Source of the DNA: Xanthostigma xanthostigma
Taxonomy: Eukaryota; Arthropoda; Insecta; Raphidioptera; Raphidiidae
Assembly: GCA_963575645.1 (NCBI GenBank)
Contig: OY754473.1
Coordinates: 2,232,001-2,296,000, forward strand
DNA: 64,000 nt
Reading direction: 5' to 3'
Shown: one piece after another, positions 1 to 31,175 of the stretch
How positions within the stretch are numbered: position 1 is the stretch's first letter
Layout: each line of letters opens with the position of its first letter
Notes under the pieces: generated by a model
What the model was told of the DNA's origin: nothing
The model's input: the letters and a program-made list of their open reading frames with translations, nothing else
Databases searched by the model: none
Position numbers and translations under genes: made by a program

Positions 1-752
1 GATACTGAAGACTGGTTGGCGACGGCGTTTTACACGCCAATGTGTGGCCGAATACACGAACGTTGGGACAAATTCCCTTTGATGTTTCGTCAAAAAACCG
101 ACACAAGACGGGCAACGTCCAACGTTGGAGCAAACATTGGCACCAAAACGCTATAATCTCGATCCACACATTGGCCGAGCGTTGTTGGCACCAACATTGG
201 CCCCAATGTGCGGTCCCGGCATTAGTCTCGAAAGTATCGGAACTGCATCGTTGATATCCCCGATTTAAACCTCGAATGTCGTTTCAATAAATCGAGCCTT
301 GGCGATGAACGTTTCCGGCCGGTGTCGGTGCACTCTTTTAATTATATGCACAGAACGAAGAGTGTGTGTGAGAGACAGAGAGAGAGGCAAAAGGTTGTAG
401 CGATGCTCTTGTTCGGTGAGATCATTCGTCATAGCGTAGAAGGTTACGTGTATTTTAGGAATGTGGTCAAGCGAGTCAATGACGTTACAAGAGACCTTGG
501 GAACGAGCATTGCGCGTGCTGTCTTAGCCTATACGGTGCGTTTATATATACAGATTGTGCGCGAAAATTGCGCCGCATTTCTATAACGTGTCGCACAAAT
601 GCTTGTTTTTAATTTGAAATTGTAATCTTTTGAATTGAAAAGGCAACCCCGTTGGTATAATTGGTATTCGTGGTATTAAAACGTAAAATTACTAGTTATA
701 ATAGCCCTGACAATATTGCGATCCGGATGAGAAAGTTTGCGAACGTGTACAA
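1..752. other. Unassigned left edge
   Basis: GC-moderate, with CCAACGTTGG-like motifs at 60-200 and a GAGAGAGAG patch at about 370-388. No gene is recognised. Confidence 0.4.
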
Positions 753-1052
753 TACGCGCCACGAATCTAAAAGGCTCGGAAGTTAGATGCGAATGCAGGC
801 TTGCGCTTGTACAGTCTGTTGAAAAACTACAAACTCGCAAATCAACAAAACTAACATAGCAATAACAACTTGACAATAGCGTACTCGACTGTACTTTAAA
901 GCAGGAAAGTGACAAAGGCAACGAGCGATCACCGACGAGCGCACGTTCCGTGCACGTAGCTGAGAGGTGGTGGGAGTATCAACGGCTCTAAAGTGTGCCT
1001 TTGCGACGCTGTTTGAGACTGACTTTCGAACCTTTTAAATCCGTGGCGCGTA
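753..1052. mobile_element. TIR element of the GCGCCACG family, copy 1
   Basis: Starts TACGCGCCACGAATCTAAAA and ends with the mirror GATTT/CCGTGGCGCGTA. The body includes sequence shared with copies at 31320-31635 and 46483-48004. About 300 bp, non-coding. Confidence 0.8.
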
Positions 1053-1207
1053 CCATATCATTTAACTACACAATTTGGGCGCATCGAGATTTCGCATTAA
1101 AAGTACCGCAACACCCATTTTTAATCTTAATTTATGACAAGGCATTCAACTTTCCTAGGGATTAGTTTTTGAAAAAAAAAAGTGGTTCGTGTCATTTCCC
1201 AGAGTTT

Positions 1208-1575
1208 AAATTTCATCACAATCGACCCAGCGGCCTGGTCGTGAAAGGTTAAATTCATACAATATTACAAGCCTCACTTCATCGCCATAGGGGTTGAATT
1301 TAAAAAAAAATAGCCTATGTCCTTCCCCAGGCTTCAAAACTATCTTCATATTAAATTTCATCACATTCGGCCCAGCGATCTCGCCGTAAAAACGTAACAA
1401 CCCCCACTTCATCCCCATAGGGTTTGAATTTTGAAAAGAAAGTAGCATATTATGTCCTTCCCGGTCTTCAAAACTATCTCCATATTAAATTTCATCACAA
1501 TCGGTCCAGTGGTTTGGCCTTGAAAGCGTAACAGACAGGCATAGTTACTTTCGCATTTGTAATGCTAGTATGGAT
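1208..1575 (+). mobile_element. LINE-derived 3' tail with internal repeats
   Basis: A unit starting AAATTTCATCACAATCG recurs at 1208, 1353 and 1487, each with a CCAGCG/CCAGTGG box and ATAGGG...TTGAATTT. Ends TTCGCATTTGTAATGCTAGT. This pattern (repeated 3' units, ...AGTATGGAT end) is typical of insect LINE tails. Confidence 0.6.
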
Positions 1576-1939
1576 TGTCCTAAAAAAAAAGCCTGAGGAC
1601 ATATGGAGAGCAGTCACCAGTAAGGTAATAAGGTTCATAAAAAGCATTCTACCAGACTGGGAATAATACTATTAGAGGATGCACAAAAGTTCTTTTAGGT
1701 CGCAGTGTTTGCGAGATATCAGTGTCTTATCACCCCAAATAAATCTAATCAACTGTCCTAATATTTGCCTGTCTGTCCGGATGACCGTCCAGAAGGTGAT
1801 TGCCTCCTTTTATATCTAGCAAGCTGAAACTGCAAAGATAGTACACGAAATTAGGCGGAATGTTTTCTGCGGGATTTAAAAAAAAAAAACATGCTAACGT
1901 TCTTCAGAAGGTCTTCGTTAACCTTTGCACATTGACACG
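1576..1939. other. Unassigned
   Basis: No gene or clear repeat boundary is seen. Confidence 0.4.
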
Positions 1940-2337
1940 CAGTGCCGGATTATACCGCCTATACGCTAAAACAGACTTGCCGCCCACTTAAGGCTAGCGT
2001 TTTCCCGAGTTTCTGTAGGTTATCTTTTCTTTCATTGAAGTTACTTTCAAATCATTCCGCATATATTTGCTTTAGTAGCCCGCAAATACACCAGGTTTGA
2101 ACTAGGTTCTCATTTATCCTACCAATACTCATGTTCGAGGGAAAACGTTGCCTCCCGCCCCTGATAACGTGCTGTGTATATTATATAAGTTAGTAATATC
2201 TAATTCCGATTGGATGTTCAAGACAGACCGTCATTTCGTTAGTTAGAAATCATTTTTTTTGCGACCGTTCCGGCCGCCCCTCCGACGAGTGCTGCCCTAC
2301 GCTTAGCGTAGTTAGCGTATAGGTTAATCCGACACTG
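1940..2337. mobile_element. hAT-type MITE
   Basis: CAGTGCCGGATTATACCGCC pairs with GGTTAATCCGACACTG; flanks TTGACACG (1932-1939) and TTGGCACG (2338-2345) differ at one base. TTAGCGTATAGG / CCTATACGCTAA extends the terminal repeat. Confidence 0.78.
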
Positions 2338-2345
2338 TTGGCACG

Positions 2346-2983
2346 AGGCAGAATCGAATGCAGTCGATCTTTCGATTTGATTTAAACGAATTAGAAAAAT
2401 CCCCTGGGGTAATTATCTACTACGAAACGAACATTTTTAGGAAAAATAAAAGTCACTATTGTCTAGATGATATCGGAATACGAACCCGCGACCTACGATA
2501 TACCGCGGTATCGCGATCACCGGGTATGCGTGTCATCAACATCGTTAAAATATAACGAGTTCCAATTAAGCGGACACTCGATTGCCGTGTATAATATATT
2601 CGATAGTGTAGTTACGCGGTGTTCAATGACTTTGCCGGCTCCGTCGAGGCCTTGAGAAGATGCCGGTCGGGTTCATGCACCTTGGTCAAAGCCTCCTCGG
2701 ACTGCGATGTTGGACCACCAGCCCGCGCATGCGTGAGGCGTGCGAAAATTGCGTGTTCTTGTTTTCACTTCGAATTAGTTTTGTGTATATATACCTACCT
2801 GGTTATTACACTGATGGTATGTAAATTGCAAGTGTATGAATGAATGCCAGATAATAACGGATTTCTTTTTTATTTACGGATACGTATTACTCGAGCGCCA
2901 TTTTTGTTTTGTAATAAAGAAATCTGAGCCGTTTTGGCACCGCATTCTCTGCAAGTGTCTTTATTAGCTCCGGATAGTACGAA
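2346..2983. other. Unassigned
   Basis: 2620-2760 is GC-rich, but frames there show no family features. GGAATACGAACCCGCGACC (2474-2492) looks like an inverted tRNA B-box region. Confidence 0.35.
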
Positions 2984-3310
2984 TCTATACTAATATATAA
3001 AGCTGAAGAGTTTGTTTGTTTGATGGACGCGCTAATCTCAGGAACTACTGGTTCAAATTGAAAGACATTTTTTTTGTTGGATAGCCCATTTATCGAGGAA
3101 GGCTATATAATATCACGTTACGACCAATAGAAGCAGAGCATCAATGAAAAATGTTGCAAAATGTACCTCAAAATTAGCGTCTATTCAGGTGAAACTAACT
3201 AAATATTCCAATATTAACGTCGTACATTCACAAGCCCGGCTAGCTGAGTCGGTAGAGCACGCGACTCTTTCAGGGTCGTGGGTTCAAGCCCCACGTTGGG
3301 CGAATATATT
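2984..3310 (+). mobile_element. Helitron-like element with tRNA-like core, copy A (3' truncated)
   Basis: Begins TCTATACTAATATATAAAGC after an A, as in copies B and C. The tRNA-Lys-like part is at 3234-3302. No CTAG end with hairpin is found downstream, so the 3' part is lost. Confidence 0.65.
3234..3302 (+). pseudogene. tRNA-Lys(CTT)-like pseudogene
   Basis: GCCCGGCTAGCTGAGTCGG through GGGTTCAAGCCCCACG and TTGGGCG match animal tRNA-Lys(CTT) in acceptor, D and T arms. The anticodon arm (GCGACTCTTTC) is 4 bases short, so the stem cannot form. Related, more degraded copies: 12650-12722 and 43643-43710, both minus. Confidence 0.8.
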
Positions 3311-3789
3311 TTTATTTTCTATATTACATTGAGTAGATAGGCAATGATCATATAGTTAATTAATAGATATATTGTATCAACGGACTTTAAATTGACGAAA
3401 AAAGTGTTATAATACAGCGTTTAGAAGCTGATGAATCGAATGTGATTTTTCTAAGGAGTTAGGTGTGCGAACTAGTTCACGGCTAATCGAGAAATCAGTT
3501 CGTTAGTTCAATTTTCTACCGCGCAGAGAAGATGGCGGACGACAAAAAATTGATTTTTTAGAAAATTTACGATGCTCTTTTATTAGCTTGATGTCCTCCT
3601 AAAAATAAACTAAGACATTTTCTATTTATTTATTTTTTTAGTTAACTATGCAAGTTTCACCATTTTATTCTACTTTTTCTGTTCTTTCTTCGAACGCTAA
3701 GCGCCTTAACAGCGGATAACGAACTCCGATTTTTTGACAATCCTTTCTGCAACCCAGCAAGGTCATCGAATTAATTCGAATTATGCGTC

Positions 3790-4299
3790 CAGTTTTTTTT
3801 TTTGCCAAGTCGGGATTTTGGAACTCTTTGAGTGAAAACAGCGGGATTCTTTCGTTGAAAGCGGGACATAGTAAAAAAACGTATATAATCGGAAGTTTTT
3901 AAATAATTTATCTTTTTATTTGAATTAAAATTACGTTTACGTGACAATAGATAGCAAAAATAGCCATTGAAAATGTATTTTAATAAAAATTATAATATTT
4001 TTAATCAGATTTACCCTATCGTTAAATAGTTGAGTCTTATTCGTCTTCAGAATAAAAAAAAAAAAAAAAAAAAAACAGAAACCAAAATCAAAAAAGTTTT
4101 ATTCATTAGAAAAATATGGCGTTTCAAACAATAGTCTGTGGAGTGAGTGTTATAAATTGCAACTTACAATAAGAGAATAATTATTTATAAGAATTACTTA
4201 TTCATGATATTTCTGTGAAGATTTAACTTCTTTTAAAGTTATCCCCGAAAAGTGGGACATTTAATTTTGATTTAAAAATCGGGACGTCTGGCAACGCTG
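3790..4299. mobile_element. hAT-type element, degraded
   Basis: The right end CGGGACGTCTGGCAACGCTG and left TTTGCCAAGTCGGGATTTTG are typical sub-terminal hAT sequences. A run of more than 20 A at about 4048-4073 lies inside. No target duplication is seen. Confidence 0.5.
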
Positions 4300-5581
4300 A
4301 TCCATAACCTCAAATGTTGAGCCTCTATATAATCTGCAATCGGAACGTTTGAACAGTCGATATATTTTCACAGCGCGTCGATAGAACGATGCAATTCGAA
4401 ATAATCGCGACGGATTTTTTTTCGTCGTCTCGTTATCAGTTTGTAAACAGTAATTACAATAATAATAATTTATTCACGTCGCCTCGTTATAGTTTTGAAT
4501 GAATCCTGACGATTTACTGCAATGACTGTACAAAGCGTGTAATTTTCCACTCGCGGCCATTTCTCTCGTCGCCCGTCGCTGTCTCCCATCCGCGGACCAA
4601 CATGGCCGACGGTGACTGATCTCTCGAACCACGTGGTCTGCTGTTCACGTGGAATAAATTCTGTCGATTCATTAACGTGTGAACCAGGCGTTTTCTTCGA
4701 GACGCTTTGCTTCCCGTAGATCAGTTAACGAAATATTACCAACTAGTGTGACCTGTGCGAATTATTCGCACAAAATAAGTATAATAATTATCACTTTACA
4801 AAATTATTTTTTAAATATGATTGCAGGTATTCAATTCGTTTCTAATTTTGCACACTGCTTATAACGTTCTTCTTTTTGTTGTATTACAATATGAAGCTCA
4901 GATGACAGATCGAAGAAATATTTTACTAAAATTGTCATATAGAGGCGCAAGTAGCAAAAGCGTTGAGCTAAGCCGTCAGATGGCATCATGCAGCATTGCT
5001 GTGACGTTGTTCAGCGTTGCTCGCTGTTTCTCAAAATTAAAGCCGTCACATGGCAGTATGCAGTATTTACAATATAAAGGTCAGATGACAGATCGAAGTG
5101 TTGACGTTGTTTCAAAATTAAAGCCGTCAGATGGCAGACGTTGTTCAGCGTTACTGTTAATTAATTTACAAAAACAAAAGCAATAATAAATTTTTTAGTT
5201 GTCGATGTCAGTAGAGCAAGCAATTGCCAATTATTATCTGTAAAATGATATATAATTTATGTGGAGAAATTGTGTGGTTTTTTTCTAAAAAGGGAGGCAA
5301 ACATCTTAACCTTAACGTATTAATATACATAATATATGATTTTTCAGACATTGTCTGAGAAATTGGTCGATAATTTTATTTATTGAAGAATTCTAATCAG
5401 ACGTTAATCATTGATCGATTACCGATTTAGATTGGTAAGAAAACTTCTTTGTTGGTAGAGAATTTAGTGTTTTTTTCGTAGAGCAGTGTTTCCCAAACTA
5501 CTGCTCGTAGTCGTGGGATTTTTGGGTGACACGCCGCGTATAAAGAATTTCCAAATCGTAAGTTTTTTATAGTCTCTAGTT
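4300..5581. other. Unassigned, with a short repeat
   Basis: AAATTAAAGCCGTCA(G/C)ATGGCA occurs at about 5035 and 5115, and a variant at 4970. A lone hAT-like end (GCAGTGTTTCCCAAACTACT) is at 5484. A 121-codon frame at 4821-5186 is probably chance. Confidence 0.45.
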
Positions 5582-5877
5582 CAGGGGTGTCAGACCGATT
5601 TTTCTAATGGGCCATTTACAAGATTTAGGGTGTGTTAGCGCGCCAGACTTGAAATTATAAACTAAAATACATACTAAATTAAAATCATTATTTATTTTAA
5701 ATCAATTTTCATGTAAAGGTAATAAAAAGGGTAAATTATCATGAGCTTGAAGATCCAGACACCTGATGTCTCTTGTCAGGTGTCTAAAATCCTCACCGGA
5801 TAAATTCTGGTAGCGGGCCGTATTGAGATGGCTTAAGGGCCGGATGCGGCCCGTGGGCCGTATCTTTGACATCACTG
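5582..5877. mobile_element. hAT-type (Charlie-like) MITE
   Basis: CAGGGGTGTCAGACCG and TCTTTGACATCACTG ends; flanks CTCTAGTT and GTCTGGTT match at six of eight bases. GGGCCGGATGCGGCCCGTGG near the right end is typical. Confidence 0.75.
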
Positions 5878-6533
5878 GTCTGGTTTACGATCATGTCCGA
5901 TCAGATATTTACAAGTAAAAATAGCTGGCCAAAACAAAAAAGAAAATAGAAATTAATTACGTAAAAAACAAAGCCGGACTGCACAAAACTAACTATAATC
6001 TAAAAGAGAAAAAGGAGAACACAAGAGTGAAGTTGCCGTTTCTCTACGTGTAGGCAGCCATATTCGTCCGGCTTTCCGAGCTCCTGATTGGTTCCCTTTT
6101 TAGGCGCGAATAGCGTAAGCTAAAGCGCCTATATGTACTCGCTTTGTCTGTGATTTATCGTGAAATTGCTTGCGAAATCTCGAACAATTCGATCAATATT
6201 CTAACAGTATATCTTACAAAGATATATCGAGGTTATACTGGTAACAAAAAAGAAGAAAATAAGTCGGGAAACCTCAACATGCAACAGATGAGAACCCATT
6301 CAAAAACAAATGAAAGAAACAAATAACTTCCCATCTGCTGTGTGTGGTTTTTCGACTTGTTTTTACGTCTTTTTAGTTATTAGGTTCATTTGTTTGCAGT
6401 CGGGTTTCATGTCTTGTTTTTAATAATTCATTTTTATTTATAGTATAGGTATAATATATCTACATTGCGACACGTTCGTTATGCTCAACTGTTTAGCGTC
6501 TATAATTTATAATCTCTCTCTCTCCCTCTCTGC

Positions 6534-7267
6534 GCACGAGACTGGAAACACTGCTGGGACTTCTGCTGGCCGGCAGGCAAGCTACGAGGCTTGAAATGAC
6601 GTCACTGCGGGCTCGTCTGCCAGCTCGCAGGATGGATGTTAAAATTAGAACAGGGGCTATTTTTCATGATTGGTCCCCTGCTTGCTCCGAGCAAGAACCA
6701 ATCAGGAAACAGGATCTTGTCACGTGGGCGCATGAACAAACACCGTGTGTTCTAAATCTTCTTGGTTTCCGGGCTTGTATGCCGTGGTCCATTGGTATAA
6801 CTACCTGACGTTTTGTCTACAGCTGCGGTAGACATTATCAAAGGCGATGTGGTAGCGGGCGAAGTGTCCTTCTAGGCTGCTCACAGGTAAGTGTGGTACT
6901 TCCTGTGAGCAGTCTAGAAGGATACATCGCCCGCTACCACATCGCCTTTGATAATGTCTACAGCAGTTGTAGACGAAACTTCAGGTAGTAATACCAATGG
7001 ACCACGGCATACAAGCCCGGAAACCAAGAAGATTTGGATCAACACCGGCCGTGAAAGCCTACACACCGTGTGTTCTGTTCAGAGACAATAAACGTCCACT
7101 TTCGTTACCGTTCTGTCACTGCGCGCGCACCGAACCTAGCTCTACAAGGCAAGCTTGAAAAGACGTCTAGTGTGAAGCGAGCACATAAAACCGATCGAGA
7201 AAACCAAGTAGTCAAATCTGGCGAGGAATCGAGCATCAAATCCAGTCTCGTGTGCTGCAGCGGCCTT
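6534..7267. mobile_element. TIR element of the CACACGAGG family with a palindromic insertion
   Basis: Left GCGCACGAGACTGG...AACACTGCTGG, right CTCGTGTGCTGCAGCGGCCT. The body matches 9473-9856 and 32237-32682 except for 6754-7062, which is an insertion. Confidence 0.7.
6754..7062. repeat. 282-bp palindrome inserted with a 14-bp target duplication
   Basis: 6754-7035 is nearly self-complementary around GTAAGTGT/GGTACTTC (6894/6895). ACACCGTGTGTTCT stands on both sides (6740-6753, 7063-7076). After the palindrome, 27 bases (GGATCAACACCGGCCGTGAA...) are not mirrored. Confidence 0.85.
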
Positions 7268-7521
7268 TAATCAGGGCCGCCAACCGGCAATCCTCGATCG
7301 AACGAAGGGGGGTCGCTTTATGCACTGCTGTTGCAACAGGAATGTTGTAATGTTTTGTGTGTAACGTTGAGTTGAGATGGTTTTGTGTTGCACTCTTAGG
7401 TCATTGCTCTCGTCGCGTATGCAGCTTTATAATATACGAAAGGGTTGCGCTCTCGAGTCAATAACCACCACTGCAATATTATCAGTGCATCGCTCGCATG
7501 CAAGCATAATATATAAATTAC

Positions 7522-8299
7522 TAGTGATGTGTCGCTCCTGAGCGAGACGTTCATAATGAACGACTCCTTTCTCGGAGCGGAGCGAGTCGCTCTTTTTTTT
7601 TGTGAATGACTCACTCCGGGCGCCGTTGCTCTGTGCTGAGCTGTTCTGTACCGTTGCATTCGCACATTTACAGAGCGCACACAGCACAGGGCACAAAGAC
7701 ACTAGTGAACTTTGCACGTACGGAGTTATCTTTGCTGATTCATTTAATGTTGAACGACACACTGTAAGTCTAAGTACTAAGCTTAACAGTGACTTAAACC
7801 ATTCACATTGACGTCGTTGACAAAGATATAATATTGTAACAATAAACATTATTATTGTTAAGCTTTTATTATATTTTATAGTTTATCCGAAATTCGAGTT
7901 GCGTCATTTAATGCTGAATGACACTGTAACTGTAATAGTACTAAGCTTAACAGTGACTTAAACCATTCACATTGACGTCGTTGACAAAGATATAATATTG
8001 TAACAATAAACATTATTATTGTTAAGCTTTTATTATATTTTATAGTTTATCCGAAATGCGAATAATATAAGATTAGAATCATATTAAAATGAGTTCAGGG
8101 CTGAGTGTATTGCGCTGTGCAATGCTTCGTGACTCCTGAGCATGCATGATGACAGTTCACACCTCTGCAGTCTGCATCTCTTGTGTAGTGCGTACTGTCT
8201 AGTGTCGCTCTTTTGAACGACTCGCTCTGAGCGACTCTTTTTAGTGAGTGGAGCGCACGGAGCCAGCTCCCAATAAAGAGTCATGTGGACACATCACTA
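7522..8299. mobile_element. hAT-type element with internal tandem duplication
   Basis: TAGTGATGTGTCGC and GTGGACACATCACTA ends; flanks ATAAATTAC and ATAAATAC nearly match. A unit of about 165 bases (CATTTAATG(T/C)TGAA...) occurs twice at about 7741 and 7906. Confidence 0.75.
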
Positions 8300-9092
8300 A
8301 TAAATACGAAGACGCGCGCCGCGGGATGCGTATTTCTCAACTATCAACGTCGCGTTTTGATGTATTGAGGGTACTTGCTTTTCAGAGTTCCGTAACCAAA
8401 TGGCAAAGAAAGGAATCCTTATTATGTCCGTCTGTCTATCTCATATATCTGTTAATTAACTGTATAGATCATTGTCTATCTACTCAATGTGCGAGGAGTA
8501 AAGGCAACAAAGCGTATCGAAAATATATCTGCGCCTCTTTCTTCGATGTAATTCCCTGATTTCTCCGATGAGAGGATTGGTTGATGTACTTGCATTCAAT
8601 CTGAATAAAGTATCTTTGTTTCAAAAACTTTGTCTTTTTCTATGACGTTAACATGAGCGTACCCAGCTTTGGGCCCAGGTGGGGGCAAATTAGAAATTTC
8701 TTAAGCCGGGTCTCCCGTGCTTGTTTTTGCCCTCCTGGATACGCCAATGCTTAAGGCTTAAAAAGAAGACAGAAATTTATCTTTGCACCCTAATGGTTCG
8801 ATTGCGATTTTATTCCTATGCTCGGTATAGAATAAAAGTATATGGTCTATTTGTACGTTAATAACTCCGCCATCTTTCAATTGATTCGGATGAAATTTTA
8901 CAGACAAGTGTCTTATGTGAACCGCCATACAGTCTTTAAAAATGCAGTGACAGTTCTTCAGTGACTATTTTTTCGTTAGGTGAATATGTCCAAAGATATA
9001 AGGTTCTAAAGTCGTTAATAATGTGTGTCCCCATTTTAGACAAGTCTTTGAAAATGCAGCAATAGTTCTTCAGTGACTTTTTTACGTTAAGA
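8300..9092. other. Unassigned and repeat-derived DNA
   Basis: A LINE-tail-like patch (GTCCGTCTGTCTATCTC at 8428), a small element with CCCAGCTTTGGGCCCAGG / CTCCTGGATACGCC ends (about 8656-8743), and a tandemly repeated unit with GTTCTTCAGTGACT (8953 and 9065). Confidence 0.45.
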
Positions 9093-9429
9093 CAGGGATC
9101 GGCAACTTTTTGAGACGGAAGAGCCAAAAGTTACAATTTACAAAATTTCCCAGTTTTTAAAGAGCCACTAAATATTTTCGTTTCAGTATTATAGTATTTG
9201 CTTATTTAAATTAAATAATAATATATATAATATATCCGAGGACGAAACATCGTGACGGGGGCGGTGTGGGTGAGACGCGAGTGGAAATGGCTGAGAGACA
9301 GACATGGTACTCAATCATGGATCGATTGGACGATTTTTAAGGGTTTATATAATAAAATAGTTATTTTTTACGTCTGGAACTGGAGAGCCGCAACTTTACA
9401 TCAAAAGAGTCGCAGGTTGTCGACCCCTG
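9093..9429. mobile_element. hAT-type (Charlie-like) element
   Basis: CAGGGATCGGCAACTTTTTG and GGTTGTCGACCCCTG ends; flanks CGTTAAGA and CGTTAGGG share six of eight bases. It sits in the second unit of the adjoining tandem repeat. Confidence 0.8.
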
Positions 9430-9472
9430 CGTTAGGGGAATATTTCCAGAGATATGAGTTCCTAAACACAGG

Positions 9473-9856
9473 CTTGGTACGAGGCTAGAAATGACGCCAC
9501 TGCTGGCTCGCCTGCTAGCTCACAAGATAGATTTTAAAATTCGAACAGGGACTATTTTTCTTGCTAGGTCCTCTGCTTGCTCTGAGCAAGAACCAATCGG
9601 GAAACGGTATCTTGTCACGTGGGCGACATGAACAAACGCCCACAAACCAACACGGCGTCATTCTGCTCAGAGAGTCAGACAACAGACACGTGCTCTGTGT
9701 TTATATTTGAACTGTCGCTGCGCGTGCACCAGATCCATCCACAATACAAGCTTGAAAAGACGTCTCGTGTGAAGTGCAATTAAAAAAAGACAGCGCTAGG
9801 ATACTAGTAGTCAAAGGAATCTAGCGGCAAATCCAGCCTCGTGTGCAGCGGTCTTA
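9473..9856. mobile_element. TIR element of the CACACGAGG family, left-truncated
   Basis: The body matches 6534-7267 without the palindrome; right end CCTCGTGTGCAGCGGTCTT. The outer left repeat is missing. Confidence 0.65.
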
Positions 9857-10836
9857 AGGGTATTTTGTAACACAAGAAAGTTCGACCGACTACTACTGAA
9901 TCGATTTGACTAGACTTTATGTGGGATCACGCTGAGGGTATGCTCTATTAAACAGAAAAAGAATAATTAAAATCGGTTCACAGTTTGCGGAGATACAGAA
10001 AAGAAAAGAAAGAATTTTGAAATCCATTAAGTATACCTAGTAATTGTTTCGTCAATTTCGTATTGCACATGTCATCTCGATTAGTTAAGGGCGTTTGACC
10101 CGCGCCGTAATGACGTAGGGTGCTCCTTCGATCTCTCTGACAGTCGGCAGGGTCGGTTGACGTAACGACTTTACTGCAGACGCGTTTTTGTAGTGGCCTA
10201 CATTATTATGTGCGGTCAGAAGACAAAATTGCTTATGTGAACTTTGCGATCATCCACCAAACTCATGTAATGAGCCAATAGGCATGATGACAGTATAAAA
10301 GAATCAAAGATTGAATGGTTTTAGAGAAAAATATATGTTGAAAGGGTTCTAAAAAATGGCCCAGTAAGATTTTTAATAAAATAAAAGTATAAAATACTGC
10401 AATCGGCCATGTTGATTGAAACACCGAATGACGTCACGCCTTCTTAAATCAAAGAGAATATAAACACTTGAAGTAAATAATTACCGTGTCGCTTAAATTT
10501 TTGTCACTTCTGCATCACTTAATTAGTTGATTTGTTGTTTATTCGTGGTTTTGTGATATTTTTATAACACTTCTATCATAGGTTATTTTTTAGGTTAGTT
10601 AACTCGCAGCTAAAGAAAGCCATTCTATTTTTACTACGAAGTAGGTACTTATACTTTTAAGAAAATATTTAATATAAATCGCATCATAAAGTAAATTTAC
10701 ATACCTATCTACGACATACCTCTGCACCACAGCTCTACACCCATAAATACAACGTCTAATGTCAGCTATCACTGAGGCGTGACGTCACAAGCGTTTTCGC
10801 GATTACTTCAAAATAGAAAGATAATAAATATAGTTA
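9857..10836. other. LINE-tail-like and unassigned DNA
   Basis: 9865-10020 reads like a LINE tail (AATCGGTTCACAGTTTGCGG AGATA). GGCCATGTTGATTG...GACGTCACG at 10407-10438 has relatives at 25498 and 46368. No gene. Confidence 0.4.
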
Positions 10837-11089
10837 CTAAAAAACACGCTTTATATCGAACTAAAAAGTAAAGATATTTTTTTTAAATAAGCTTAAAACA
10901 ATAATGAATAAAAAATACAAATATTGTGAAAAAAGCGTGGGGCGCTTTGTTCCACATTTTCGTACATCGAGCGCCCCACGCTTTTTTCACATTAATACTT
11001 GTATTTTTTATTCATTAATTATTGTTTTAAGCTTATTTAAAAAAAATATATATTTTACTTTTTAGTTCGATATAAAGCGTGTTTTTTAG
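10837..11089. mobile_element. Foldback element, copy 1
   Basis: Same CTAAAAAACACGCTTTATAT ends and GCGTGGGGCGC hairpin as copies 2 and 3, 253 bp. To its right follow an inverted tRNA-like unit and a mirror end at about 11470-11485 (ATATAAAGCGTGTAAAAACG), giving a larger composite. Confidence 0.85.
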
Positions 11090-11170
11090 TTTTTTTTAAA
11101 CTATATTTAGTTTCCACTTTTTAGTTCGATTTATTGTCCTAAATTTGCCGGAAAAAAAACAATTTTTTTT

Positions 11171-11259
11171 TCGGCGTGGACGGAATTAGAACTCACGACC
11201 AGTGTTTCCGAGAGTTGACGACAGTGAAGACCCGTGCCTTAGACCGCACGGCTAACCAC
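11171..11259 (-). repeat. tRNA-like (Leu/Ser type) unit
   Basis: Reverse complement of the unit at 41310-41398: GTGGTTAGCCGTGCGGTCTA at one end, GTCCACGCCGA at the other. Mutated B box. Part of the same composite repeat. Confidence 0.55.
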
Positions 11260-11260
11260 G

Positions 11261-11375
11261 TTTTACACAGACGGGAAAGGTGTTTTACACGGACGGGAAA
11301 GGTGTTTTACACGGACGGGAAAAGTGTTTTACACGGACGGGAAAGGTGTTTTACACGGACGGGAAAGGTGTTTTA
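11261..11375. repeat. 22-bp minisatellite, five copies
   Basis: TTTTACACGGACGGGAAAGG(TG) repeats from 11261 with one or two changes per copy. The related composite at 41.3 kb has no such array, so it expanded in this copy. Confidence 0.92.
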
Positions 11376-11499
11376 AGTGCTGGCATATTATACTACAGTA
11401 ATAAACCACTTGCTGTAGTCCAAACGAAAGTTACAAACAAACATACAAACTTACAATTAGTGAAGTTAATATAAAGCGTGTAAAAACGGTCGCCATAGA

Positions 11500-11952
11500 C
11501 GGTTTTGCGTTTCGGTGTTCGGCGTGTGTATACAGCACGCGCCGCGGCGTCAGTCAAGTCTCTGTGTTGCGGGCACGCCGACGCTCGCTCTTGTTCCAAG
11601 GTCGTTGAGCTTTCGGCAGTGCAAGCACCTGACAGGTGGCGCTCTCTTTCACTCGCCATCTCGCTCACACAACGTCTCCGGTCCTTACCCCGCGCGCCGG
11701 TGTTTCATGTGCTCGGCGGTTTGTTTGTCGTTATGTCGAATTGCAGTTTAAACGAGATCAAACGTTAATTTAGTAAATATTGACTTGAATTTGTCACTTA
11801 AAAGTGTAGAGCGTTTAAAAAAAATATTAATTTGTAGAATTCTAATTGTAACATTGTTTTTAATTTGTAAATTTTAATTGTAAAATTGATAGTAATTGAC
11901 ATGTTGCATCCTAAATTGGTTAAGCAATAAATTCTATATCTATCTATCTAAT
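11500..11952 (+). mobile_element. Probable non-LTR retroposon
   Basis: GC-rich start, then AT-rich, ending AAGCAATAAATTCTATATC(TATC)n at 11925-11950, a simple-repeat tail typical of insect R1/Jockey-type or SINE elements. Short frames inside are not conserved-looking. Confidence 0.5.
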
Positions 11953-12372
11953 TCACAGTTGGTGTTAGATTTTTATAGATGACAATTTGGTGAAAATTGT
12001 GGTTTTTGTGAATTTTTGAAAATATTTACGGGATATTTCAGTGTGGTAGATTGTAATTGAAGATGATAATTTGTAAAAAAAACTATGATGGTAAAGTTCG
12101 TAAATTTTTAAAAACGTTTATCGTATCATAAACGTGTTAAAAAAACCGTAAATAAAAAGTTGCATTCGAGTTTTCTGGTGTAGGAAAAAAAACAACAGCT
12201 GAAGATCAAAACAATTGACAGTGGTGATAAAATTAACGTAAATAAAATATTGTTTACTTGGTGCTGCAGTTATGAATAAAAGATTGTATTTTGTTTTTGT
12301 AATGTGGAGGAAATGTTTATTTAAGTCGAAATACATCGTTTTTTTATACATAAACAAGTGAGTTATTAAAAA

Positions 12373-12978
12373 CTAGCGGTCCCGCCCGGTTTCACCAGGG
12401 TGTAAAAGAACGAATGGGGAAGGGAGGAACATGAGTACACATATTCATCTTAGTTTACCGAGATGAATGTTGTGTCCAAATTTCATGATGATCGGAGTTA
12501 CCGTTCAAAAGTTTTTGTCGATAAAAAGCAGTATTTGAACTTTTTTTAACTAATAATTTTTTTTAATTAGTTAAATAAAATTAAAATAAATTTAAATGTA
12601 AGCCTTAGAAGAAAGCAATGTAAAAAATAAAAAAAAAATAAAAATATATTCGCCCAACGTGGGGCTCGAACCCACGACCCTGATATTGACAGTCGCATGC
12701 TCTACCCATTGATCCATCTGAGGTTGTGTTCTATCGCTAATATGAGTATATCTAGTTAGTGCATTTCACATGAATAGAAGCTTATTTTTGAGATACATTT
12801 TGCAACATTTTTCATTAAAGCTCCGCTCCTAATGGTCGTAGCGTAATATTATATAGCCTATAGCCTTCCTCGATAAATGGGCTATCCAACAAAATTTTTT
12901 TTTTCAATTTGAACGGGTAGTTCCTGAGATTAGCGCGTTCAAACAAACAAACTCTTCAGCTTTATATATTAGTATAGA
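12373..12978 (-). mobile_element. Helitron-like element with tRNA-like core, copy B
   Basis: On the minus strand TCTATACTAATATATAAAGC ... GGGCGGGACCGCTAG, between A and T. Hairpin CCCTGGTGAAACCGGG near the end. tRNA-like part at 12650-12722. Confidence 0.78.
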
Positions 12979-13029
12979 TATACCGAATAATACGTTTGCA
13001 AACGAGTTAGAAATAGTCAAAATGGTGTC

Positions 13030-13360
13030 GGTTTCATCAGCGTGTGCCTCAGAATGAAAAAAACAAAACTATTGTCCGTCTGTCTGTCCGCCGAGACAAC
13101 TTTTCTCATAAACGGTCAGAGAAGTATCAAGTTGAAATTAATATCAAATATTAAGGTCTACGATCCCACAGTCCTGTAAAAATTTCAAACTTCTATCTCA
13201 ACGTAATAAAAAGATACAGCCTTACCATAATACGTGCATCATTAAAAATAAACGAAAGTGACGCCATCCTACGTGATGATTGTAAACTACATCTAGTTGT
13301 TATAACCATACAGAACCCTCAAGGCGCGAGTTCTACTCGCACTTGACCGCTTTTTCTCTC
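13030..13360 (+). mobile_element. LINE-derived 3' tail
   Basis: CCGTCTGTCTGTCCGCCGAG at the start and CGCGAGTTCTACTCGCACTT at the end; same tail family as 40590-41176. Confidence 0.55.
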
Positions 13361-14187
13361 AGTCTTTACTGCCAATATATATATATTAGATATCGTGTCC
13401 ATCAAGGTAATATAATAAAAATCGCAATAAAATTTTAGCGTGCAATTTGCTGAAGATGCGCAAAAATCTCGAAAATCGGTGAACCATTTGCTATGAGACT
13501 TTAACCAAAAAATTTCATCGGTTGTGAATCGGTTTTCATGGAAACTGTTCAAAGAAGTCCGAACCGAACAACCGATAACCAGATTTCAACCGAAAGCAAG
13601 CATGTTAAAAAGAAGCGTTCAGAATTGTCGCTTTACGATAATACGATTACAGTTTTTTTTTTTTTGTGTCCTGAGATTTCCACTGGACCGAATTTTGACT
13701 CGGCCAGTCCGGGCCAGTCGTGTCTTTGACCCTTTCCCGGTAATACGCACTCTGGAGTTAGGCGGAGCACTGCGAAACGATAGTGTGGGTGGTAAACACG
13801 AGCCAGTGGCGTATACAAATATAATAATCTGAAGAAAGCATGTCATTGAAACTATTATAATTTTAAATATTTGAACAACTACATAATTATAGAATTAAGT
13901 TACTGTCGTAGTTAATTTATTCATGAAACGGTAACTTTCAGGCAGTAGGCGGAGTGAAGGTCTCACGTACACACTACTATTCTCAAATCTCACACATGCC
14001 ACACAACCAACACATCTCGTGACTCCTAGCCGAGAAACATTAAAACTGATATAACACGATTCAATTGGCTCCTCCGCTTCCGTGCTCTCACCGATTACGT
14101 CTCTTGGCTCCTTGTCGGCGAAGGTTTAAAGTTGTTTTGGACTGAACGATACGCGTGAAATTAATCGGACAACGTTTCGTTTTACAG
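13361..14187. other. Region upstream of NAT1
   Basis: No gene is recognised. It should contain the NAT1 promoter and any 5' non-coding exon; the approach to 14.05 kb becomes GC-richer. Confidence 0.4.
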
Positions 14188-14303
14188 GAAACTAGCGCCG
14201 CTTTGCTAAAACCCGCCTCTCTCCCGACTGAAACAAGAGAAGCGCCGCTGTGTGAAAGGAAAGCAAGAGCAAGCATCAAGTAGGCGACGGAATTAACGGC
14301 CGC
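14188..14303 (+). promoter_or_regulatory. NAT1 5' leader (part)
   Basis: A fair acceptor (CGTTTTACAG ending at 14187) could open the non-coding part of exon 1. The leader has no ATG upstream of the proposed GUG and carries an in-frame TGA at 14253. An upstream 5' UTR exon or transcription start could lie anywhere in 13.9-14.19 kb; no clear TATA box or initiator is seen. Confidence 0.4.
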
Positions 14304-14480
14304 GTGCGACCCGCCAGCAAGACGGAGTGCCCCGGCAGACAAGCGGGGCCACTAGCTCGTGTCTCGGGGAGGGAGACCGCAGCCCCCCCCGCAGCCAAGC
14401 GATGCTGGGTGCCACCGAGTTCATTGAGACACCAAGATGCACTCACCCCGGAAACTAGGAACGATCTCATATTCAGAAAA
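14304..14480 (+). CDS. NAT1: NAT1 coding exon 1 (GUG start, N-terminal leader)
   Basis: The frame reads ...KRCWVPPSSLRHQD...TRNDLIFRK and ends phase 0 at donor GTAAGT (14481). It matches the vertebrate leader, which has a KWIP...RR and RHDAIFRK block just before VRGILNKL. In frame, the stop TGA at 14253 precedes the exon and no ATG follows. GTG at 14304 is the best near-cognate start, though its context (C at -3, C at +4) is weak; ATT at 14292 is another near-cognate. The first ATGs in the leader (14402 and 14437) are both out of frame. Confidence 0.8.
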
Positions 14481-17400
14481 GTAAGTTGCCGTACTCAAAC
14501 ACCGGGAACAGACTTTTGTTTTTTTTTTTTTTTTTTGAGTATTTAATATTGTTGTGTTTTGTCTAAAAAGCATGGCGAGTTGCCGTTAGTGATGTGCCGG
14601 ATATCCGTATCCGCGGATATCCGAGGGAGAAAAAAGATCCGTATCCGTTAGTTTTTGGCGGATCATTTACCTAATTAATTTTCAATTCATAGATGGAATT
14701 TTATATAATATATAGGTGATTAGGTAATAATGAAAAACTGTTAAATTCCATTCAGATTATTTTTTATTTTTTAAAATCGTATTTGGCACCTTTATATTGC
14801 AAACATTTATCGTAGTGAGTACCATACCAATAGTACATAACTCAAAGGTACTAAAAAACTATCTTTATAATGAGATATTGCACATCGATCTTTGGAAAGA
14901 GACAATCTGTTATGAGAGTTAACTCTTAAAGAGGTCAATAACTTTTTCCCATAACAGATAGTCTCTTTCCAAAGGTCGATGTGCAATATTACCGCCGCGT
15001 ACTCTATGAAAGTTCAGATCCGTATCCGCGATAACGTCTTATAAATTGATGAAATAAGTTGATGAAACACCGGCTGCATGCACGAAAAGGTCACGTTCCG
15101 AAATGTGTCACGTTCCGCGCACGATCGGCCCAAGTTTGACAGCTACTAAAATTTAGGTTATGTACTATTATTCGAGCGGAATACGTATCACGTAAAACTA
15201 TCGTCCGTAAACCGACTTTACAGACAACCAATTTTTTAACGATCCGGCACATCACTAGTAATGACATAAAGTCGAGAAACGGACGTTAAACGCATTATTA
15301 TTATAAATTTAATTCAACGTAAATCAAATGGAGATATTGATATGAAATCATATGCATAGTATTGCCAACTTTAAACAAGAGTTTCTGTTCCAAACTCGAA
15401 TAGAATGCCATGTCAGTTTTGTAGGACAAATAGATGACGTTTGTTTGTTTGTCTGTTTGCAGGTGCGCGGAATACTCAATAAACTTACGCCGGAAAAGTT
15501 TCAAAAGTTGAGCGATGACTTGTTGCGCGTCGAGTTGAACTCGAGCGTCATTCTCAAAGGCGTGATTCTGCTCATCTTCGAGAAAGCACTCGACGAGCCC
15601 AAGTACTCGTCTATGTACGCGCAGCTTTGCAAGCGATTGTCGGAAGAAGCGCCAAATTTTGCCAAGTCCGGTCCTTGCACATTTCGTCTGTTGCTTTTGA
15701 ACAAATGCAAAGTTGAGTTCGAGAACAGATCGCAAGCAAACGAAGCGTTCGACAACAGCCATGGCCCGATATCGGCGGAGGAGGAGGAGAGGCGGCAACT
15801 CGCCAAACGCAAAATGCTCGGCAATATCAAATTCATCGGCGAGCTCGGCAAACTGGAGATCCTGGCCGAGAGCATATTGCACAAGTGTATCCAGCAGTTG
15901 TTGGTCGACAGGCGCCGCAAGTACAGCGACGGCCAGCAGGCGTTGCAGGACCAGTGCGAGGACCTCGAGTGCCTCTGCCAGATCATGCGCACGTGCGGCC
16001 GAGTGCTCGACACCGACAAGGGCCAAAAGCTGATGTATCAGTACTTCGACCGAATGTCGGTGCTCGCCGAAAATCAGGAACTGCCACCGCGCATACGGTT
16101 CATGTTGCGCGACGTGATCGAGCTGCGTCGCGACAACTGGGTGCCGCGCAAGGCGACTTGCATCGAGGGACCCGTGCCGATACACCAGATAAGGCCGGCC
16201 GACGACGATAGCCGCTCGGGTGGGGGCGGCGGAGGCGGCGGCTACGCGAGAGACAGGCGCGATCGTAACCAGGACAGGGACCTGGACAGACAGGGCGCCA
16301 ACATTCCCGAAAGCTTCTTCAGGCATCCGATGAAGATGCGCACCGGACTCGTCGACGATCTACTGCCGGGTCTCGGTATGCAATCTCCTACCGCGCCACT
16401 CATTCCGACGCACGACAAATACTCGTAAGTCTAATAGTTATTGGCGTAACTAGTAGTCTAAGTCATTCATGGCGTGTCAGCGCGATGTTTTCAGCACGAG
16501 TCGTAGGTGCGCAGGCACGAGCGAAGCGAGTGCATACTGCGCACCTACGACGGCGAAAAATGAAACACGATTTATTTTGTTTCAAGTTCAAAACAATACT
16601 ATAGTTATTGGCGTAACTAGTAGTCTAAGTCATTCATCGCGCTGACAGGTCATGACTTAGCCTACAAGTTGCGCCCATAATTTTATTCAACAATTGCGCG
16701 TTATTCATGTTTTAATTATAATGAGATGTTGTAAATATCTATTTATTTCTTTATAAAAAAAACTGTCAATACTAACAGCACCAAACAGCACGATTCAATG
16801 TTTTGGTTTGAGGTTAGCCGGTTATGAATAAACTCCATGTCGAAAACATTCGGCCTCTCAATTTTAGCCTCAATGGGTAACAACGGAGTTGTTGTTACCT
16901 ACTATTTCGTTACGACTCAGAAAATAGTTACGTTTATTTTCATTACTCCACAATGGCCGAGCTAGTAGGAATCTTCATTGAGTTATGACAAGTAATTGTC
17001 ACCAGTCGGTAAATGGCTATTTAGGGTTCGGTTTTTAGGCATGATAAAACATGAATAACGCGCATGAGTTGAATAAACGATTATATATATCGATTAAAGA
17101 ATTATCGATGTCCGTTGGCCTACCAGACGGATGAATGAACGAATAAATTAGAGGTTATGGCTTACTAGACCGTCATGCGTGTCATCCTAAAAGAATTTTT
17201 CTTCATACCTCGACCGAAAGTGCACACTTTCGGCACCAATTGTAAATTTACTCCTTGGTGTGATTACACGCACCAATGAGGGAAATTTGTACGTTCGGGC
17301 GGTAGTAAAGCAAAAACAATCATTCAACTGTTGTTTAGATGTCGTTTTCATAGCAGTCCTATTACATTTAAAAAAAAACTAAAAAACACGCTTTATATCG

Positions 17401-20400
17401 AACTAAAAATAAAAAATATTTATTTTTAAAATAAGCTTAAAACTATAATGAATAAAAAATACAAGTATTATTGTGAAAAAAGCGTGGGGCGCTTTGTTCC
17501 ACATTTTCGTACATCGAGCGCCCCACGCTTTTTTCACAATAATACTTGTATTTTTTTATCATTATTGTTTTAAGCTTATTTTAAAAAAAAACTTTTTAAC
17601 AAAAAAATTAAACCGCCGAAAAACTGAAAAGCAAAAAATAATAAATCTTTTTATTTAACTAAGTTCTATCTAAGTAGTTGAACGTATCTGACAGTCTAGT
17701 ATATCTAAGTAATTTTGAGTCGGCGTCAACAATCCTTCGCCGAAAATCTCTGAGCGTTCACGAAGTTAATGTCAGCGACAGAGCAACCCGAACGGGCACA
17801 CACTGAGGGCACACGTCTTTGCGAGTGGTCGTGTGGAGATCGCATGTTTGGAATGTTAATGTTTATCGCTGGAGATTTCACGTATCATTGTTAATTTGAT
17901 TTGTTTATTTCTTTTAGTGATCTTTGTTCATTGATTGTTTGACGCCGACTCAAAATTACTTAGATATACTAGACTGTCAGATACGTTCAACTACTTAGAT
18001 AGAACTTAGTTAAATAAAAAGATTTATTATTTTTTGCTTTTCAGTTTTTCGGCGGTTTAATTTTTTTGTTAAAAAGTTTTTATTTTATAATTTTTTGTGG
18101 CTATATAATTTATAATTGTAATACACAACTCAGCATGAAAATCTGTGAGTGAACAATAAATCACCCCTATTTTCCCATCCTTAGAGTAGGATTTTTTTTC
18201 CAAATTTATATGAGACCAACCTCGAGGTATACCCTATCCAATAAAAAAAAAATTATCAAAATCGGACTACTCTGTAAAAAGTTATGCGTAGTCATACATT
18301 ACAATCTGTGAGTGAACAATCAATAATCCCGTTTTCCTACCCTTAGGGTTGAAATTTTTTTTCCAAATTTATATGGGACTAACTTCGGGGTATACCCTTT
18401 CCAATAAAAAAAGAATTATCAAAATTGGACTACTCGGTAAAAAGTTATGCGTGGTCATACATAAATAAAAAAAAAAAAAAAAAATTAAAAAAAAAATAAA
18501 AAAAAAAATATACGCGTCGACTTGAGAACCTCCTCCGTTTTTGTTTTTCGTCGGTTAAAAAATATTTTTACTTTTTAGTTCGATATAAAGCGTGTTTTTT
18601 AGTTTTTTTTAAACTATATTTATTTCCTAAGATGTTCGACAGCTTAGAGTCCTACCTAAAACCAAACTTCGGGTTTTTTCCCACGTTCAGCTCCTGGTGG
18701 AACGGTACCTGAGGACACGTGATCGACACTGTTTTTTCCTCAGTCTTTCACAGCCAAAAAAATAGATTCGTAACACTTTTTTTTTATCTTGACAGCAACT
18801 TCAATCCGAACGGTTTCGGAGGCGGTGGCGGCGGCCGAGATGGCGGCTATCGCGGACACAACCAACGAAGTAACAACTACAACAATTACAACAACCAGCG
18901 CGGCTATACAAATAAACACAACAATCAACGTGGTAACAATAACGCACACAATTCACAGTACAACAATAACGGTGAGATTTTAATATATATCATATAATAG
19001 ACACGAGAATAAATAAAAACCAGAACCCCAAACTCGAAGGCAGTGCCTTTGATGTGTCGAACGACGGAAACATAAACTTAGTTTTGAGTAAAACGGGGTG
19101 TCTAGCTCCAAGTCAGAAAAAATGTCCCTCCTTCTTTTCTTAAATTTCATGAATATAATTATTATTGTCGTACAGAAAAGACAGTATTTTAGAATAGAAC
19201 ATTAACTTTATGTTAACAAAGTTATTGATATTTAGAGCTGTAAAAGTAACGAGAAATTGTGTACCCGTATGTATTCGTTACTTAAAGAACCAGTACCCGT
19301 TACTTTCGTATCGTTACGTTACTCGTTACTTTTCATACGACATACAATCGTGTACTAACAGCATCAAGCATGTACAGTAGAGACGCGATAATCCGGACTA
19401 ATTAAAACACAGCTGATCCGGATTATCAAAATGTCCGGATTACTGGATGTAATTTTAATTATCAAGAAAACAAACAAAAATGCTCATATTTTGCGGCTAA
19501 CTGTTTATTTGAGGCTCCCTTTTTTAATTTGTCAAGAATTTCGTTTTTTACTTGCAGTGATAAAGTAACGTGTGATCGTTTACGCGGCGCCATAGTGCGT
19601 TCTCTATGTATTTCTATCTGAGTTTGACAACGACTACATAACATACTAAAACCACCTAACTTCTCTCACTTCTCCGGCAACAAATATGTATGTAACTGTT
19701 TGTAAAACACCGCCGGCCAATAGTGTTGACGCAAATAGTGCCGGTACAGCTACTCAATAACTAAGTATCATGATCCGGATTACTGAAACTGAAAAAATCC
19801 GGACTACAATGTACATAATACTATCAAACGACTGTCCGAATTACCAAAGAATCCGGATTATGAAGGTTCGGATTAACGCGTCTCTACTGTACCATCGTAT
19901 CGAGGCGCGTCGCATACGTGATACGGTATGACTTCGTTCGCATAACGTATAACCGCATCAAACGAGTCGAACTGACATGGATAATGCGAGTAACGAAATG
20001 AATTTGTAAGTAACGGTTCGTTACTTCGAGTCAGACGATGTACCCGTTACTCAGTAACGAATACATACGGTTTGTTACAGCTCTATTGATATTGTATGGA
20101 CATGCAGTCAATAGAATGTTTTTAATTGATTTTTTGAACTGCTTGTAATTTAAATTCGTGATTTTTGCTGGAACTAAATTGAACCATTGCAGCCCCTTGT
20201 ATCTATCAGACACAGCTAATTTGTGCGCAGGAATACTAATCACATAAGTACTTCCGGTGTTGTAGGCATGAAAGTTGTTTAAACGTAATTTTTTAATTAT
20301 TTTTTTTACATCCCATAAATAATTTGCAAAAAACAATCGCCGGCTTATTCGTCATGGGAACTGATTCTAATGCTCTCTGGTGGCAGAAAATAGAAGCTGT

Positions 20401-23400: not shown

Positions 23401-26400
23401 CTTTAAAATTTGACAGGTTATTAAACAGGTTATACGTCGCTATATGAATAACTGGTGCTCTCGAGTTAACGCTAAATATAACACATATAGCGAGAAATTA
23501 TAGCGAGAATAGATAAAAAAATTAGCGAGTTTTATTCCGTAATCGCGTTTTGAACAAATTATCGCTATATCGCCAGCATAGCGAGTCACGTGACATACAT
23601 CCGTAATAGGGCCCATTATGTCATAAAAACATCGAATGTGACTCAAAGTATTTTGAAATTCACGGTTATTTTTCTGTGTGTTGGTAGAAGATGCAAGTGT
23701 GCGATTGGAGTGTGTCGTTACTCGTTACTCTCTTTTTTTGTTCGATTAATTCACAAAATATCGATATTGAAAGGGTCGATATTATCGATATCGGTCTGAT
23801 GTCGATATAGATATCGATATTAAAATAATTTTGCACATTGTCACAGTTAAACCGCAATTTAATCTTTCAATTTCATCAGTTGATTGACAAAAGTAAGCGG
23901 TAGTTATGGACACTAACAAATATTCATATATTTTTTAACATTCACATTCGCAAAATTCGTGCGAGTATTAATATCAGAAAAATCATGTATTTTTTTTAAT
24001 GTGAAATTTATTATTAAGGAGGTTGAGGCGTTAAACGAAGATAATGAAAAAAATCTGAAATAAGGTTTTTTTAATAGATTTTTTTATGACAAAATTTTCT
24101 GTAAACAATTCAAAATCATTAGGAGATTTATAAAATTAAAAAAACTTTAACATGTAGTCTTATGGAAAATATGTCAACCTAGTCTGCAAACTGTAGGTAC
24201 ATTTTAATTTTTTGCAAATAACCAAATAATGTCAGCAGTTCCGAAAACTAACTGGGTAAAGCATCGGTGTCTTACAAATATTTTAAAATTTTTTCCAATT
24301 TAATTAGGAGACTTAATCAATAAAACAAATTATTAAACCTTAGCAATTTTTGATGATGGACTTTTATTCTTGACAATTTTAACTGAATTTTCAACTTTTT
24401 AATGATTTAATTTTAATTTCTTTTTTAATTATTTACTGCAAAAAATATGTAAAATACAGATATTTACATAAATTTATTTTTCCTAACCTAACTTTGTATA
24501 AAAAATTCAAAAGTCAGTCCATTAAGTAAAATACTAAAATTATTCATTAATAATAAAACAAAAAATGATTTATTTACGCCTTTATGACAATAATTTATTG
24601 GTATCATCGACTTATAACCTTTTGTAAAAAGTTATTCTGGAAAAAGTTCAGATTTAGAATTCGACTTACTTTTGATTGGGACTGTAACGCATAAACCTCC
24701 TTAAATAAGACAAAAAATATTAATTTCCATACATTTTTATCAGAAAAGTGTTTCCTTCGCCTTGTTTTTAAAAAAAATAGTTTTTTCACTAAGCCAAGGT
24801 AACCTTGCAATTATAGTATTAATAATCAATCTAGTACTCAGAACCACTACAAACGTGTGCCAATCGGCTGCCAAATTTTAGTCTTGGACAAATGTAGACA
24901 GATTTGAAAACTGAATATTCGCATTCGCAAATGTCTAAAAATTGACACCCTACGCTGACTATCGGTAGTGTTCCACCTCCGATGACGGTATTGAAATAAA
25001 AAAATAAAAATGAGAAGTAACAACACGATTTTTAGGGACCAAATAAGGAGGAAGTACTGAAGAAATTGAGCACACTGCTGGACGAATATTTGAAGAGCGA
25101 AAGTTCATCGGCCTTGACGGAGGCCGTCAGCGCTTATCGTGAACACAAAGTACCGGACAAGTTCTCCAAAGACGTTGTACTTACAATGTTCAATACAACA
25201 TTGGAACGAGCTGGTAAGTAGTTCAGCACTGATCAAAAAATTATATATTTTATACAGTATGTAAACACGTAAGGTGCACATAGGGAAATTAACATTGGGG
25301 AAAAATGACTGGATCAGAGTGAGCCTTGAAATCTTGTTTTTCAATAGGTCATATGCATGTATTTTTTTTATATTTTTAATAAATTATTTAGTCAACCATA
25401 ATACGAAAAAAAATTGCTAATCATTTAAAAATGTAATATTATCATAAGAAAAAAAATATTAAATTTCACATTCAAAATTAGACAGTTTAAACAATCGGCC
25501 ATGTTGGCGGGCTTATGTGACGTCACGATATATGATGCATGTCAACTTTGATGTCAAATTGTCAATGTTCTAAATGAAGTTTATTTGTTGTTTTCTCTAA
25601 ATACTGACGTAATCTTACTGTGAGACGACCCAGTCGCCATGGAAACTGTTATTGATATACAGATTGTATCAAATCAAAACGGTCCATAGAACATTCTGTG
25701 TGTAAGACAGAGACGATATTATATAAAGCACTAAAGCAGTAAGTAAGAATGAGATAAATGATCGCTAATAGCTCGTTACTGTGGTTATACAATCTGATAG
25801 TATCGTCTTTGTTTTCTACAGTAAAAATCACAATTTTATCAAATGTCAGTATTCACTAGTGAAATTATTGATAAAATGGCTATTTATACTGTTCGGGAAA
25901 AAATCCAAATAATTAAATGGTTTTATGGTGGTAATTCAACCGCCAACATAATTTTATTTGTAGTTGTTTTAATGGATAAATTAGTAAAAAGATTTACAGT
26001 GTACGTAATTATTTATTTACGTAACCACAGTAACTATATTAGCGTACATTTATCTCATTCTTACTTATTGCTTTAGATCTTTATATATCGTCTCTGTCCT
26101 ACACACAGAATGTCCTATGGACCGTTTTGATTTGATACAATCTGTATACTCTGACGTCACGCTGCGTTTTGAAAATTCGAAAATAGCGCGTATTTTCTAC
26201 GTTTCTATTTTATTATTTGTATTTTTTTCAGCGAGTAGATTAATAAAATAACCATTACGATTTGATCAGCAACTAAAATATATTTCAAAATAAAAATTTA
26301 AACTAATTTGGAGTCTCATGCATATGACCTATTTGACAGATAATATTCTTTTGCAAAATGAATGTGTATACTACCGAAGAAAATATTCAAATGATTACAA

Positions 26401-30726: not shown

Positions 30727-31175
30727 TAGTGATGTGCCGGATTTCCGAGGGAGAAGAAAGATCCGTATCCGTTAGTTTTTGGCGGATCTTTTACCTTATT
30801 AATTTTCAATTCATAGGTGAAATTTTATATATATAGGTGATTAGATAATGAAATACTGTTAATTTCCATTCAGATTATTTTTTTAAATCGTATTTGGCAC
30901 CTTTATATTGCAAACATTTATTGTAGTGAGTACCATACCAATAGTACATAACTCAAAGGTACTAAAAAACTATCTTTATAATGAGATATTGCACATCGAT
31001 CTTTGGAAAAAGACAATCTGTTATGAGAGTTAACTCTTAAAGAGGTCAATAACTTTTTCCCATAACAGATAGTCTCTTTCCAAAGGTCGATGTGCAATAT
31101 TTACCGCCGCGTACTCTAAGAAAGTTAAGATCCGTATCCGCGGATATACATTTTTAACGATCCGGCACATCACTA
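30727..31175. mobile_element. hAT-type MITE (copy 2), perfect target duplication
   Basis: Ends TAGTGATGTGCCGGAT and mirror; flanked on both sides by ATTTTGAC (30719-30726, 31176-31183). About 450 bp with an internal inverted repeat. It defines the ends and superfamily of the copy in NAT1 intron 1. Confidence 0.92.

Follow-up and report, generated by a model that had tools for sequence, protein, structure and literature searches.

Translation initiation at a codon other than AUG has been reported for eIF4G2 (DAP5, NAT1) of vertebrates, with GUG as the codon, and for the orthologues of the ascidian Halocynthia and of Drosophila (PMC9977666); for the latter two (H. roretzi and D. melanogaster; Takahashi 2005, cited in PMC9977666), the cited passages describe the start merely as 'non-AUG', with no codon given. 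In the human EIF4G2 message, a minor start at an AUU lies upstream as well, and a short out-of-frame open reading frame (ORF) that opens with AUG lies downstream (PMC9082881). A GUG-initiated eIF4G2 reporter was very sensitive to eIF1 in vitro (PMC10742948), and GUG reporters in cells were decreased about 7-fold by eIF1 and increased about 4-fold by eIF5 (PMC5823381). Exclusive starts at a non-AUG codon are known from very few genes, for reasons described as unsettled; human TRPV6, a gene unrelated to NAT1, has its sole initiation at ACG (PMC9789052). FlyBase held 27 genes with non-AUG starts in 2015, 11 of them with CUG and most of them postulated for want of an AUG; neither NAT1 nor eIF4G occurs in the main text of that report (PMC4528330). 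No start codon was named for an insect NAT1 in the available text of the literature searched, which lay for the most part outside subscription journals. Since a non-AUG start of eIF4G2 has already been reported in relatives, at most the codon described here is new.

The locus was analysed in a window of 64,000 nucleotides (the whole stretch of DNA under study) from Xanthostigma xanthostigma; all features of the gene lie on the plus strand and are given in window positions. The gene belongs to the same family as vertebrate EIF4G2/DAP5/NAT1 and probably shares with it a near-cognate start, theirs being GUG; the codon in the best context is here an ACG, whereas the in-frame GTG has a weak one.

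Gene structure

The gene is assigned by sequence likeness to NAT1/DAP5/eIF4G2, for human eIF4G2 is the best solved relative of both its MIF4G and its W2 domain. Exon 2 (15463-16424, with the donor end placed by an approximate matrix) encodes the MIF4G domain (PF02854, E 3.5e-49), which among solved structures scores 264 bits with eIF4G2 (4iul) versus 162 bits with eIF4G1. The last exon (27568-28496) encodes the W2 domain and the stop codon (PF02020, E 3e-21) and matches human eIF4G2 (3l6a, 3d3m), with 304 bits for 3l6a in an alignment starting at chain residue 53; of two candidate acceptors lying close together, the better one, at 27567, was taken. Another probable exon is located at 25036-25213; the 61-residue piece at 25036-25218 is without a Pfam match, and we take it to be the start of the MA3 region from its likeness to human DAP5.

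The open part of exon 1 (14256-14480) comprises 75 codons and ends at a donor (AAA|gtaagt after 14480) that ranks sixth of 3,732 GT sites by an approximate matrix. It joins exon 2 in phase 0 at 14480|15463, reading RNDLIFRK|VRGILNKLTPEKF. The alignment with human eIF4G2 spans this join, with TRNDLIFRK paired to human ERHDAIFRK, and the end of exon 1, LTPETRNDLIFRK, aligns from about position 14442 to the human chain 4iul. The 75 codons, bounded by a TGA, are the whole open frame upstream of exon 2 and are without a Pfam match; eIF4G has a long N-terminal part that binds PABP and eIF4E. Exon 1 searched alone against Pfam and PDB gave no match up to E 10. A search for relatives with the residues of exon 2 (15463-16296) yielded 65 pattern stretches in genome contigs and 11 in viral contigs, none of them confirmed, and none in plasmids.

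The original prediction had called the frame of exon 1 conserved on the strength of two motifs. RNDLIFRK bears this out in the alignment above; KRCWVPP was recovered by no alignment. In the eIF4G1 chain, AWKPSS stands 27 residues before FRR and KRCWVPP here stands 22 before FRK, a correspondence drawn by eye that HMMER did not align. KRCWVPP presumably resembles the W-x-P motif of human DAP5.

Intron 1 contains a probable non-autonomous DNA transposon (14587-15257) with perfect 16-bp terminal inverted repeats (TAGTGATGTGCCGGAT), within which lies an inverted repeat with 43-nt arms, 93% complementary, and a 29-nt loop (14875-14989). A second inverted pair of the same 16-bp repeats at 30727-31175 is probably another copy of the element (none expected by chance). 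Intron 2 contains a 163-base unit in two tandem copies (18140-18462, 87% matches), and a tandem array of a 22-base unit is located at 11260-11375 (5.3 copies, 96% matches). Pieces of a Mob1/phocein-family gene were found on the plus strand at 41978-48640 (PF03637, E 1.6e-18 at 48230-48636), including a weak piece at 41978-42226 that is below the curated cut-off.

Open frame of exon 1

The open frame is bounded by a TGA at 14253-14255, in the frame that reads FRK|VRGILNKLTPEKF over the splice junction; further in-frame stops precede it at 14229, 14193 and 14127. As originally predicted, 14256-14480 contains no ATG in this frame, and the only ATGs in 13997-14480, at 14402 and 14437, are both out of frame. 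The first has G at -3 and opens an ORF of 18 residues (14402-14458); the second has A at -3 and opens an ORF of 30 residues that runs to 14480 and crosses the splice into exon 2. No ATG is present between 13997 and 14401, an ATG-free spacing of 406 bases; of the 982 such spacings on the plus strand, four are longer. The ATGs at 13923 and 13996 were rejected as starts, their ORFs being just 3 and 8 residues long.

Downstream of 14253, the spliced message, as modelled from genomic exons, has its first in-frame ATG at 15613-15615, in KYSSMYAQ within MIF4G. It is the fourth ATG overall, and the three that precede it (14402, 14437 and 15515) are all out of frame. A protein begun at 15613 would lack 50 residues from the front of exon 2, the part in which the match to MIF4G opens, and so would have a truncated domain.

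By 5,000 dinucleotide shuffles, ATG is absent from the 49 codons of 14256-14402 in 81% of cases and from all 75 codons in 41%, and at least one GTG occurs within the 49 codons in 39%; neither the missing ATG nor the presence of GTG is therefore informative alone. What carries the argument is that the end of the frame is coding and that stop codons close it on the upstream side. Taken together, the lack of an in-frame AUG before 15613, the lack of a good splice acceptor in 14256-14405 (see below) and the reports on orthologues make it highly probable that NAT1 of this animal uses non-AUG initiation, whichever codon or codons serve.

Candidate start codons

The published context optimum for near-cognate starts is (C/A)(A/G)(C/A)(A/C/G)-codon-GAU; the contexts conserved at three genes, EIF4G2 among them, indicate -4 C, -3 A and +4 G, and the +4 G is described as critical for non-AUG starts (PMC9082881). 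Twenty near-cognate codons at 14195-14402 were scored against this optimum, with CTG, GTG, TTG, ACG and ATH taken in all three frames and AAG and AGG in the coding frame only. The top score among these 20 belongs to an in-frame ACG at 14322-14324 (agcaagACGgag; agcaagACGgagt), a codon that the original prediction did not name. It agrees at six of seven context positions, its flanks being -4 C, -3 A, -2 A, -1 G, +4 G and +5 A, and it has all three bases of the conserved EIF4G2-type context. The runner-up is an out-of-frame ACG at 14287 (5/7). ATT 14292-14294, a possible minor start, has 4/7 (-3 G, +4 A), and GTG 14304-14306 (ggccgcGTGcgac), the start proposed earlier, has 2/7 (-3 C, +4 C); both are in frame, as had been stated.

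An in-frame CTG, GTG, TTG or ACG with at least six of the seven positions arose in 4.1% of 10,000 shuffles, and in 5.3% when ATH codons were counted as well; under a simpler rule (purine at -3, G at +4), such a codon was found in 25% of shuffles. The context score is moderate evidence, because the rule derives from mammalian assays and was applied after the sequence had been seen. Initiation at ACG is usually weaker than at CUG or GUG, and this counts against ACG 14322. On balance, ACG 14322 is probably the main start codon, and ATT 14292 or GTG 14304 may serve as minor starts besides it.

Initiation mainly at GTG 14304, which would give a protein six residues longer, was the reading first put forward, and it now appears rather unlikely. 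It has the precedent of vertebrate eIF4G2, which starts at GUG (PMC9977666), a feature termed evolutionarily conserved (PMC10325891); this precedent is on record as claimed, but which codon this animal uses does not follow from it. Scanning ribosomes would also meet GTG 14304 before ACG 14322, and a predicted stem that begins at 14326 lies about 20 nt downstream of the GTG. The published spacing of an enhancer stem is about 15 nt (PMC9789052), so in the folding model the stem would follow ACG 14322 too closely to enhance initiation there, and its position would suit GTG 14304 better. RNA folds near the start were, in all four stretches examined, no stronger than those of shuffled sequences (z -0.66 to 0.79). 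Against the GTG stands its context, which had been foreseen as weak and is level with the lowest of the 20 codons scored, with C in place of the critical +4 G (PMC9082881); the chance frequency of a GTG among the 49 codons, given above, likewise speaks against it. Of the original GUG proposal, the non-AUG start is thus supported and the codon is not (2/7 versus 6/7 for ACG 14322).

That ATT 14292, GTG 14304 and ACG 14322 might share initiation with none of them dominant is improbable. Nine in-frame near-cognates are present in 14256-14402 against a shuffle mean of 5.75, and Ribo-seq of human EIF4G2 suggests that the AUU is used there as a minor additional start (PMC9082881); six of the nine, however, are AAG or AGG, which are essentially not recognised (PMC9789052), and the contexts of the remaining three are unequal (6/7, 4/7 and 2/7).

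Coding signal and composition

Codon usage lends no backing to the proposed start: it scores best in the NAT1 frame for 14256-14303 and best in another frame for 14304-14396 and for 14322-14396. This test has little power, since in the coding control (14397-14480) the NAT1 frame is nearly tied with another (-9.3 versus -9.6); two exons with perfect codon-usage scores (289 of 289 and 277 of 277 windows) belonged to the training set. The G+C content by codon position is flat in 14256-14396 (.68/.64/.68) versus.58/.38/.75 in exon 2, and it is flat in the coding tail (14397-14480) too.

Splice sites and a possible upstream exon

An ordinary AUG start would result if an unseen upstream exon with an AUG were spliced into exon 1 within 14256-14450. 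This is quite unlikely, for none of the 18 AGs in 14256-14405 makes a good acceptor. They score from -3.54 (14394, rank 1,539 of 3,145) down to -15.77, against 7.19 for the acceptor of exon 2 at 15462 (rank 23 of 3,145). The donor and acceptor matrices are approximations, and real sites can score low by them: donor 16424 has 6.28, and acceptor 25035, probably a real NAT1 acceptor, has only -1.72 (rank 1,037 of 3,145). Position 14394 is a C-rich candidate that directly precedes AKRCWVPP, and acceptors 14458 (-4.2) and 14476 (-1.5) score near it, though both are inside the stretch aligned to human eIF4G2. When the 18 AGs were combined with the 32 donors of at least 6 bits at 12-14240, 110 pairs gave an open frame with an ATG; the donors compatible with 14394 are six, and all are located more than 9 kb upstream. 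No branch-site match was found upstream of 14394, and the same search found none for 15462 either. The G+C content of 14256-14394 is 66%, versus 34-35% in introns 1 and 2; this and the non-AUG start reported for the Drosophila orthologue (PMC9977666) both speak against an upstream AUG exon. The best local acceptor (14187, 3.3) is of no help to such an exon because it lies upstream of the in-frame TGAs at 14229 and 14253.

A scan for core promoter elements in 13800-14300 matched neither TATA nor Inr nor TCT; a single DPE-like site (14130) and pyrimidine runs at 14069, 14108 and 14216 were noted.

Proposed mechanism and implications

With ACG 14322 as the main start, initiation may be pictured as follows. 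Before reaching the coding end of the exon, 40S subunits that scan the genomic stretch 13997-14401 would encounter no AUG, provided that the transcript begins within it, and a fraction of them would pair Met-tRNAi with ACG 14322 in its favourable context and produce full-length NAT1. Leaky ribosomes would reach the out-of-frame AUGs at 14402 and 14437 and presumably make dead-end peptides. As the use of the ACG would be only partial and leaky ribosomes would be lost to these ORFs, NAT1 output should follow start-codon stringency, i.e. the balance of eIF1 and eIF5.

For annotation, a gene finder that requires an ATG would be expected to truncate NAT1 at 15613 or to invent an upstream exon.

It is conceivable, though we hold this only tentatively, that what NAT1 retains as a trait is a start other than AUG, and that the codon used for it shifts, such that ACG replaced GUG in this lineage, with an AUG-free stretch ahead of it and out-of-frame AUGs behind. 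If so, selection would hold the output of NAT1 to start-codon stringency and not to one particular codon; a non-AUG state that persists while its codon differs between lineages would suggest that selection probably acts on inefficient initiation that is sensitive to stringency.
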